Positions 47,972 to 49,555 of a DNA stretch of 64,000 bases are shown here, piece after piece; position 1 is the first letter of the stretch; each line of letters starts with the position of its first letter. The position numbers were made by a program, and so were the translations under genes. The DNA is from Oligoflexia bacterium. GTDB taxonomy: Bacteria > Bdellovibrionota > UBA1018 > CAIPTA01. The stretch covers positions 1 to 64,000 of the forward strand of contig JAMLID010000001.1 of assembly GCA_023954355.1 (NCBI GenBank). The letters are read 5' to 3'. A model generated the notes under the pieces. That model was not told the DNA's origin and searched no databases. It was given only the letters and a program-made list of their open reading frames with translations.

Positions 47972-48189
47972 CTGTACTTGATATTAAACGGAATAAAAAA
48001 ATACAAGTAAATTGATTTAATACCTAAGTTGGCAAGTTTATTGAAAATAGAGCTTTTCAGAGCACGTATTCTATTATTCACTACGCACTTTATGTACAGC
48101 TCGTATTAGGTGAAATCTCGCAGTCGTTTGCTTACTTTTATTCTAGGTCTAAAAAATCTACCTCTATCGTCTAGATGAAGTCGGATTTT

Positions 48190-48399
48190 TGGAAGTGACG
48201 ATAGGCTTCGCCTACTACAATCACGGCTCCTGCCGTTCTTTGCGTAGGCTCCCCGCGTTCACTAAGAAAGCCATCCAAGGCCTTCTTCCCTGCAAGAAGT
48301 CGCTATGGCGACATCCCGCAGGTCGTTCACTTGCTTCGAATCCTAATCTACTAAAACTAAAAAACTCCGCATAGACAAGCCAGCGAAGTTTTTTTAGTT
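48190..48399 (-). mobile_element. Candidate miniature tRNA-targeting element at tRNA-Cys
   Basis: Read in the tRNA direction (minus strand), the tRNA-Cys gene is followed by its terminator, then about 150 bp rich in short hairpins (GTCGC/GCGAC, CTTCTT/AAGAAG, ACGGC-AGGA-GCCGT). It ends in a degenerate copy of the tRNA's own 3' end (T-stem strands GTAGG...CCTAT, then CGTCACTTCCA) at 48190-48205. That copy matches the tRNA's 48400-48415 at 15 of 16 positions. Nothing in it looks coding. This layout is what insertion at a tRNA 3' end leaves behind. The 218 bp further left (47972-48189) show no gene either. Confidence 0.55.
48354..48399 (-). terminator. Intrinsic terminator of tRNA-Cys
   Basis: On the minus strand the stem AAACTAAAAAAACTTCGC pairs with GCGGAGTTTTTTAGTTT (one G-T wobble and one bulge) around a 12-nt loop directly after the CCA end; the second arm carries the T-run. 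Confidence 0.85.
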
Positions 48400-48475
48400 T
48401 GGAGGTGACGATAGGATTCGAACCTACACAACACGGTTTTGCAAACCGTTCCCTTAGCCATTCGGGCACGTCACC
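48400..48475 (-). tRNA. tRNA-Cys (anticodon GCA)
   Basis: A 76-nt cloverleaf on the minus strand with the CCA encoded: acceptor GGTGACG/CGTCACC, D-arm CCC/GGG, anticodon stem ACGGT/ACCGT around TTGCAAA (anticodon GCA), a 5-nt variable loop and T-arm GTAGG/CCTAT around TTCGAAT. Discriminator base U, as usual for tRNA-Cys. It lies 40 bp past the stop of queE on the same strand. Confidence 0.96.
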
Positions 48476-48515
48476 AAAAAATGTAGAACTAAACTAAGCG
48501 ATTTGACCTAACAAG

Positions 48516-49151
48516 TCAAACTCCTCGCTTATCACCCCAAATTACTTTATGTAGCTGTATTTGAAAGCGAACATTTAATCCATCTTTTAAAATTTGCTCG
48601 GGTAGCCATTGAAGGTTTTCTTGAGGCATTACCGGAGACATAAGAATTTTATGCTTATTTTCTAATTGGTGCTTTTGAATAAAATCTTTGGCGAATAAGT
48701 AATCTCTTTGGTCGCAAATTACGAACTTAATTTCATCCTGAGGTTTTAAATAACTTAGGTTTTTTTCCGATTTAGGGTTTGCCATTTTACTGCCTGGAGT
48801 TTTCACGTCCATTACTATGGTTACTCCAGCAGGAACCTTGGAGAGATCTTCTACTCCATCAGTTTCTAAAAAAACTTCATAACCACTTTTAAGAAGTGTT
48901 TCTAGCAGAAGAGGGGTTTCTTCTTGCTCCATAGGCTCTCCCCCGGTGACTTCTACGAATTTAGAGGGGTATTGGCGAATTTGATTCAGAATTGCGTCAA
49001 TTGTGGTTTCTTCACCTTCATAATAAGCATATTTCGTGTCGCAGTAGGTGCAGCGAAGCTTACAGCCTGATAGGCGGATGAAAATGCAGGGGCGCCCGTT
49101 GGCGCTGCTTTCTCCCTGGATACTAAAAAAAATTTCATTTAGCTTCAGCAT
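48516..49151 (-). CDS. queE: 7-carboxy-7-deazaguanine synthase (radical SAM)
   Basis: A 211-residue radical SAM enzyme in queuosine/7-deazaguanine biosynthesis, converting CPH4 to CDG. The cluster motif is C30xxxC34xxC37 (SGCKLRCTYCDTKYA), preceded by FFSIQGESSANGRPCIFIRL and followed by the SAM-binding VTGGEP. The product feeds tRNA queuosine, relevant to tRNA anticodons of the GUN type. Lone gene with tRNA-Cys 40 bp downstream on its strand; other que genes are outside the window. Confidence 0.96.
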   Translation of the reverse strand: MLKLNEIFFSIQGESSANGRPCIFIRLSGCKLRCTYCDTKYAYYEGEETTIDAILNQIRQYPSKFVEVTGGEPMEQEETPLLLETLLKSGYEVFLETDGVEDLSKVPAGVTIVMDVKTPGSKMANPKSEKNLSYLKPQDEIKFVICDQRDYLFAKDFIQKHQLENKHKILMSPVMPQENLQWLPEQILKDGLNVRFQIQLHKVIWGDKRGV

Positions 49152-49223
49152 GAAAGAGGTGTATATCAGGTTCTCTTGCTCTTGACGAATGGATTAGGGG
49201 CGAGTACTTTCTTCAAAAATTCC

Positions 49224-49300
49224 GGCTCGGTAGCTCAGTTGGTTAGAGCGTGGCATTCATAACGCCAAGGTCGGCAGTTCGATCCTGCCTCGAGCCACCA
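49224..49300 (+). tRNA. tRNA-Met (anticodon CAT), elongator type
   Basis: A 77-nt cloverleaf with CCA encoded: acceptor GGCTCGG/TCGAGCC (one G-U), D-arm GCTC/GAGC with loop AGTTGGTTA, anticodon loop TTCATAA (CAT), variable AGGTC and T-arm GGCAG/CTGCC. The 4-69 pair is U-A and the D-loop is AGTTGGTTA, both like elongator tRNA-Met; the C4-G69 of the lysidine-modified tRNA-Ile2 is missing. The anticodon stem ends in an A-C mismatch. Ile2 is a minor alternative, since tilS is also present. Confidence 0.93.
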
Positions 49301-49555
49301 CAAAAAAACTCGACGACCCTTTAGGGTTGGCGGGTTTTTTTGTTTTGGTGGGTAGGGGCAGAGAGCAGGATGTTGAAGCAGTTCACAAAACAACCAAGAG
49401 GGTTGTTTTGCATGCGAACGAACTGAGCACCCGAAGGGCAATGGCAGCAGCCAAGTGTGACAATTTTAGCAGCAGGCTAAAATTGCAAAAGAGAAGCTTT
49501 CCCGGAACGGGCGAGGGTCAGGAGACCCGAGTGACATCCTATACTCGAGCCAGCA
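49301..49555 (+). mobile_element. Candidate miniature tRNA-targeting element at tRNA-Met
   Basis: After the tRNA-Met terminator comes a hairpin-rich, apparently non-coding stretch. It includes TTGTTTTG/CAAAACAA-type, CCCG-GAA-CGGG, and GGGTC-AGGA-GACCC stems. It ends at a degenerate copy of the tRNA's own 3' end (ATCCT-ata-CTCGAGCCAGCA at 49536-49555) that matches 49282-49300 (ATCCT-gc-CTCGAGCCACCA). The start shares a GTTTTTT-T/A-GTTTT, GGATxxxGAAGCA series with the tRNA-Cys element, so the two look homologous. The 49556-49719 remainder has no gene. Confidence 0.55.
49302..49341 (+). terminator. Intrinsic terminator of tRNA-Met
   Basis: An A-run, then a stem ACTCG-A-CGACCC with GGGTTG-G-CGGGTTTT around a short TTTA loop, ending in a run of seven T. 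It closely resembles the tRNA-Cys terminator in form. Confidence 0.85.

Follow-up and report, generated by a model that had tools for sequence, protein, structure and literature searches.

Two structured tRNA tails in the window

The window, a stretch of 64,000 nucleotides from the genome of an Oligoflexia bacterium (phylum Bdellovibrionota), carries tRNA-Cys(gca) and tRNA-Met(cat) genes on opposite strands. Each is followed, in tRNA orientation, by an A/T-run hairpin, an antisense T-arm block, several hairpins and, last, a repeat of the tRNA 3' end. The tail of tRNA-Cys is termed element 1 and that of tRNA-Met element 2. A QueE-like radical SAM gene, as read from its translation, lies between the two element-bearing tRNA genes (48516-49151, minus strand). 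The features of the two tails are as follows (R1 and R3 are covariance models described below).

48400-48475, minus strand: tRNA-Cys(gca), host of element 1 (ARAGORN; Rfam RF00005, 62.5 bits)
48354-48399, minus strand: tRNA-Cys trailer with terminator-like A-run/T-run hairpin (inverted repeats; fold)
48335-48345, minus strand: antisense tRNA-Cys T-arm TAGGATTCGAA, left arm of the closing helix P1 (11/11 complement)
48210-48335, minus strand: type-A core RNA fold (P2, P3 and P4), about 125 nt (blastn homologues elsewhere; R1, 120.3 bits, E 2e-27, to be read as the score of one of R1's training sequences)
48223-48236, minus strand: AGGA-loop hairpin ACGGC-AGGA-GCCGT, tip of P4 (sequence; pair covariation)
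48188-48210, minus strand: 23-nt sense copy of the 3' end of tRNA-Cys, from T-loop to CCA (direct repeat)
49224-49300, plus strand: tRNA-Met(cat), host of element 2 (ARAGORN; Rfam, 61.8 bits)
49301-49348, plus strand: tRNA-Met trailer with terminator-like A-run/T-run hairpin (inverted repeat)
49346-49379, plus strand: imperfect antisense copy of the tRNA-Met 3' end, TGGTGGgTaGgGGCAG...GCAGGATgTTGAAGC (sequence; antisense score)
49379-49461, plus strand: first type-B core (R3, 56 bits, and 44.7 bits over 49379-49442; an R3 training sequence)
49454-49537, plus strand: second type-B core (R3, 57.1 bits; an R3 training sequence)
49515-49528, plus strand: AGGA-loop hairpin GGGTC-AGGA-GACCC (sequence; inside an R3 match)
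49536-49555, plus strand: sense copy of the tRNA-Met 3' end, ATCCtatacTCGAGCCAgCA (direct repeat)

All spacer features listed in an earlier note on this DNA were located where that note had placed them. The arms of the A-run/T-run hairpins are inverted repeats at 48354-48364/48390-48400 (Cys) and 49295-49320/49323-49348 (Met), and the two trailers have in common an 18-nt block, GTTTTTTTxGTTTTGGxGG (83%). The 'GGAT..GAAGCA' block that the note had seen in both spacers is the reverse complement of the T-arm of the adjacent tRNA. The match is perfect for Cys, where TAGGATTCGAA complements 48412-48422 of tRNA-Cys at all 11 positions, and imperfect for Met (GCAGGAT-GTTGAAGC). Both 5-bp AGGA-loop hairpins, with their differing stems, are present, and both spacers do end in a tRNA-end copy (Cys, 48188-48210 versus 48398-48420, 91% over 23 nt; Met, 49544-49555 versus 49289-49300, 92% over 12 nt). 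Element 2 (49379-49537) is composed of two tandem-fused type-B cores, with about 8 nt in common.

A family of type-A elements behind tRNA and tmRNA genes

By blastn, the Cys spacer has three further copies in its own genome and matches in 8 of 58 genomes of the class overall, nearly all of those outside its own genome lying directly 3' of a tRNA gene of one isotype or another. A sequence-pattern search of genome contigs gave 12 loci, in Bacteriovoracaceae, Bdellovibrionales and other delta-type MAGs. We built a covariance model, R1, from 12 aligned cores from which all T-arm-derived sequence had been stripped, so that the model contains no tRNA sequence. R1 was run on the 58 genomes of the class, which include G001 (Bdellovibrionales ND5_Bin_65, same family) and G026 (Bacteriovoracaceae UBA4573, same class). 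R2, rebuilt from all R1 matches, was run on 369 genomes of the phylum.

The model search proposed in the earlier note, which was to count against the idea if it returned just two matches or matches lacking a tRNA bias, yielded 110 R1 matches in 27 of the 58 genomes. A tRNA or tmRNA gene lies upstream on the same strand, at a distance of up to 500 nt, in 80 of the 97 matches with sufficient flanking sequence or a visible tRNA, and at up to 200 nt in 66; no match had such a gene within 500 nt in any other orientation. We estimate the chance expectation for this adjacency at about 0.3% (about 40 tRNA genes per 3 Mb). The hosts comprise 15 kinds of gene, namely 14 tRNA isotypes and tmRNA (five cases), and many orphan matches with no linked tRNA also finish in a tRNA-like ...CACCA. 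R2 extended the family to 75 of the 369 genomes and 52 of 182 genera. Units are non-coding, about 150-260 bp long, with a conserved multi-hairpin core, and are commonly found in tandem.

The A-run/T-run hairpin that the earlier note had counted among the common features is indeed found behind both window tRNAs, but elsewhere a terminator-like hairpin and T-run separates tRNA and element in just 21 of 66 first units. The terminator is thus not a part of the family, and its lack in the other 45 first units makes co-transcription of tRNA and element possible.

The type-A core fold is under selection

The covariation that the earlier note had suspected from two stems extends to 111 type-A core sequences, in which 92.9% of the cells form a pair and 35 of 36 pairs show changes on both sides. 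Doubly changed cells number 1117, compared with 316 after shuffling and at most 168 with slid partners, a margin that is very large even though the alignment is model-fitted and so favours structure. The fold of the type-A core is therefore under selection.

P3 carries an invariant C-G pair that closes an NNGAN loop (consensus C-NNGAN-G), mostly CAGGATG; loops of this type are the most frequent (36 of 111), GGA is present in 80 of 111, and ACGA and GTGA variants occur. The P2 loop is mostly a C-GNA-G or C-ANA-G triloop, with C-GAA-G and C-GCA-G frequent; such triloops are especially stable in DNA. In the tRNA-Val region of G007 (L099/L228), more hairpin repeats, with CATCCATGG and GGCATCCTGCC loops, lie behind the element and possibly belong to a wider family of NGGAN-loop intergenic hairpins.

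Both ends of the element match the host tRNA

The ends were compared in the 80 tRNA-linked R1 matches, with the tRNAs of other hosts as control. In the approximately 58 nt 5' of the core, the T-arm of the element's own tRNA recurs in antisense (at least 8/10) in 75 of 80 cases, compared with 25% for other tRNAs. On the 3' side, a sense copy of the acceptor strand and CCA (at least 10/12) is present in 45 of 80 (other tRNAs, 3.7%), and the antisense acceptor in 14 of 80 (1.25%). Both ends thus match the flanking tRNA specifically. Full copies are nearly exclusive to one side (sense only, 43; antisense only, 12; both, 2; neither, 23), so that a minority of type-A units carry the full-length copy on the left, antisense side instead. 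Sense copies begin in the T-loop, at position 55/56, and as a rule stop at the end of the tRNA; a few extend 14-35 nt or more into the trailer.

Where the arms have diverged from the tRNA, the left alone is intact in 18 cases and the right alone in 16, and both sides carry the same change in 1. Independent drift of this kind is more readily expected if the tRNA was copied twice, separately, than if selection maintained a helix. Several tRNA genes in G042 lack an encoded CCA, and the copies in the Ser and Arg elements of this genome lack it as well, which argues for copying from DNA. Reverse transcription from a mature tRNA, in a retroviral-like manner with an 18-nt tRNA copy, was considered and rejected on the basis of these CCA-less copies. 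A further G042 gene, tRNA-Gly (L195), also has no encoded CCA, yet its downstream copy reads GCTCCA (...CCGCTCCA), which copying from DNA leaves unexplained.

Taken together, that these elements exist, are specific to tRNA tails, conserve a fold and end in sequence of their own tRNA is, in our judgement, practically certain from the computational data.

Type-B elements and further types

The earlier note took the two window spacers for copies of one homologous element. Instead they belong to two sub-families that need separate models: Cys is type A and Met is type B, with a common architecture and cores that cannot be aligned. A single model for both spacers failed, as R2 gives 12.5 bits to the Met spacer and 104.9 bits to the Cys spacer; neither R1 nor R2 finds the former convincingly. 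A separate type-B model, R3, was accordingly built from the Gln and Leu elements and the two fused Met cores (three loci, in an N-padded alignment).

In the genome of the window, type-B elements follow tRNA-Gln, tRNA-Leu(taa), tRNA-Asn, tRNA-Arg(tcg) and tRNA-Ser(gct). R3 recovers the held-out Arg element (E 3e-4) and misses those of Asn and Ser(gct), whose grouping with type B is by reading. R3 has matches in 19 of the 58 genomes. Within 600 nt behind a tRNA lie 39 of 56 matches examined (35 of 51 outside the genome of the window), and none of the 56 has a tRNA in another orientation. A copy of their own tRNA at 14/18 or better is carried by 19 of the 39, against 1.9% for other tRNAs. With a core-only model for type A and a second model for type B, the note's proposal that small, structured non-coding elements using tRNA 3' ends form a family is borne out.

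Two more kinds of tail were assigned by description. Type C, at tRNA-Gly(tcc) (L108), tRNA-Ser(gga) (L133) and a G009 tRNA-Val (L236), has another core variant that ends in GCGCTTGrCCGA followed by the tRNA end, with near-perfect copies of its own tRNA end. In type D, at the second tRNA-Met (L110) and tRNA-Asp (L111) of the same genome as the window, an insert of about 100 nt with CCATTTATGG and GGATACAGGATGTAC hairpins splits the tRNA-end copy. Counting all types, tails are present behind at least 10 of the 32 tRNA genes of this genome.

Possible movement between tRNA genes and competing explanations

Cores that are about 90% identical lie behind tRNA-Leu(taa) in one genus and behind tmRNA in another; the similarity breaks off on reaching the T-arms, and the ends of each element match the tRNA or tmRNA behind which it lies. 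The same is seen within single genomes (Leu and Gly cores, 88-89%; Ser and Arg cores, 90%). Near-identical cores at different tRNAs with re-matched ends point to mobility with target-derived ends. At the rpoC-tRNA-Val locus of one genus, three species have a type-A element, one has type C and the others compared have none; trailers and downstream genes at this locus are wholly different and not alignable, and the comparison gave no clean empty site. Some insertions are old and vertically inherited (the tRNA-Val locus in three species, a tRNA-Leu locus in two). No transposase, integrase or reverse transcriptase is linked to the elements, and phage and plasmid sequences contained no carrier matching the Cys element. 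In G001 (L055/L057, C119:4786-7215), two identical tRNA-Trp elements lie about 2.3 kb apart; near the second are small ORFs that, as read from their translations, resemble toxin-antitoxin and HTH genes.

Core sharing, presence or absence at rpoC-tRNA-Val and the tandem units lead us to favour, with a probability of roughly 0.55, non-autonomous mobile tRNA-tail elements of the kind of the E. coli RtT repeats, with target-derived ends. Such units would insert at the 3' ends of tRNAs. There, duplication of the target site (tRNA positions 55/56-76, about 22 nt) would give rise to the sense copy and leave the tRNA whole, and the antisense arm might, as a guess, stem from fold-back copying of the same tRNA stretch at insertion. 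The conserved core would be the recognition site for a putative moving enzyme supplied in trans, and recombination between tRNA-end repeats could expand the tandem arrays. To our knowledge, target-templated inverted termini are not a mode of insertion of any described element. On the other side stand the strong conservation of the fold, which could equally mean RNA function, and the points above: the missing linked enzyme, empty site and phage or plasmid carrier, and the vertical inheritance of some insertions.

The chief competitor, which we think possible but on balance doubtful, is a functional regulatory RNA core released from the tRNA precursor, as for E. coli RtT. Its T-arm copies would close the fold and offer a tRNA-like end to 3' processing enzymes, and it would have spread by duplication. 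RNA-type covariation is strong, 45 of 66 first units have no hairpin and T-run between tRNA and element, and RtT, known also in Pasteurellaceae, yields RNA in Actinobacillus, as seen by Northern blot and RNA-seq, and in E. coli, where it has been implicated in the stringent response (PMC4986893). Against a trailer RNA, the host changes from one genome to the next, with 15 kinds of gene used, and many genomes lack the element altogether, a terminator intervenes in the window and at many other loci, the two P1 arms do not depart from the tRNA together (1 joint deviation in 35), and DNA-stable triloops are frequent in P2.

Three other accounts fare worse. Modules on tRNA transcripts that sequester CsrA/RsmA through AGGA loops (CAGGATG, as in CsrB) would agree with the commonest P3 loop; CsrA binding requires GGA, however, which is found in merely 80 of 111 P3 loops, and CsrA itself, present in 334 of the 369 genomes, is too nearly universal to discriminate. 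We consider this reading improbable, and equally so attR-type scars or remnants of islands or prophages shrunk to 200 bp. Integrative elements do leave a tRNA 3'-end copy, T-loop crossovers are a known sublocation, and the sense copy here begins at the T-loop. Scars, however, would share neither a conserved 125-nt folded core nor a host-matching antisense T-arm, their uniform size in tandem arrays would be unexpected, and the core-only model matches largely refute them. Least credible, to the point of being negligible, is a chance likeness of two tRNA-adjacent terminators: A/T-rich terminators are common after tRNAs, but the model, adjacency and end-specificity results oppose it and the terminator is not a constant part.

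Comparison with RtT and other known systems

The earlier note knew of nothing similar, but the RtT repeats (Rfam RF00391; rtT/rttR of E. coli tyrT and proK; Pasteurellaceae) have the same plan. RtT also lies directly behind tRNA genes and in tandem units, opens with an antisense T-stem (GGAAGGAT-GAGAAGC), continues with a hairpin core with CCCGAAGGG and ends in a 19-nt copy of its own tRNA 3' end (Tyr, 19/19; Pro, 19/19; Providencia Lys, 18/19). At tyrT, proK and Providencia tRNA-Lys, each unit has its own antisense T-stem and its own tRNA end. The type-B hairpin order (GGTTCGAC-hairpin-CCCnnnGGG-CGA-hairpin-GAGTnA-ATCC) also reads like RtT. By contrast with RtT, the type-A core folds differently. 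The host genes in this phylum are of 15 kinds, tmRNA among them, and in one class of elements the antisense side bears the full-length copy.

RF00391 at its gathering score of 45 bits matches none of the 369 genomes of the phylum, and at E ≤ 10 it has no match in the window region or the type-B loci of this genome; E. coli and Providencia RtT loci score 97-137 bits with it. Conversely, R2 and R3 do not find E. coli RtT. The tails are therefore RtT-like in build and lie outside the curated family; the architecture is common to both, and descent possibly so. RtT is present in 4711 of 5426 complete E. coli genomes, and those of its matches in plasmid and phage collections that were examined adjoin apparently chromosomal genes. 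Members of an rtT-resembling set of enteric attenuator candidates have been reported as belonging to BIMEs (PMC2965389). Searches of open-licence papers turned up no described family of such elements besides RtT.

REP/REPIN sequences, moved by RAYT (Y1), are likewise short, non-coding, hairpin-forming, repeated and non-autonomous. The tails differ in their tRNA-tail specificity, target-derived ends and lack of Y1_Tnp association: a RAYT/Y1 transposase as mover was rejected, as Y1 is found in 48 of 75 genomes with elements and 269 of 369 overall. Islands and satellites of tRNA-targeting tyrosine integrases share the direct repeat of the tRNA 3' end and its T-loop start, whereas the tails are about 200 bp long and geneless, with an inverted copy as well and a conserved RNA-like core. 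NGGAN hairpin loops are held in common with CsrB/CsrC-type sRNAs, in contrast to which GGA is not invariant and single units are tied to tRNAs.

For decades RtT has stood as a puzzle in the tyrT operon of E. coli. Now that its plan is seen in a second phylum, with a different core and host-matched ends, it can be studied by comparison of more than a hundred cases, and it becomes testable whether tRNA tails are hotspots for mobile RNA-like elements or carriers of conserved trailer RNA. Such tails can also mislead annotation, yielding false short ORFs and pseudo-tRNA ends. Tentatively, the tails may represent a phylum-wide set of tiny mobile elements for tRNA and tmRNA tails, with both ends rewritten from the target and enteric RtT as a distant cousin. 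To the RtT known from E. coli and its relatives, this analysis adds a family that spans the phylum and seems to pass from one tRNA gene to another.
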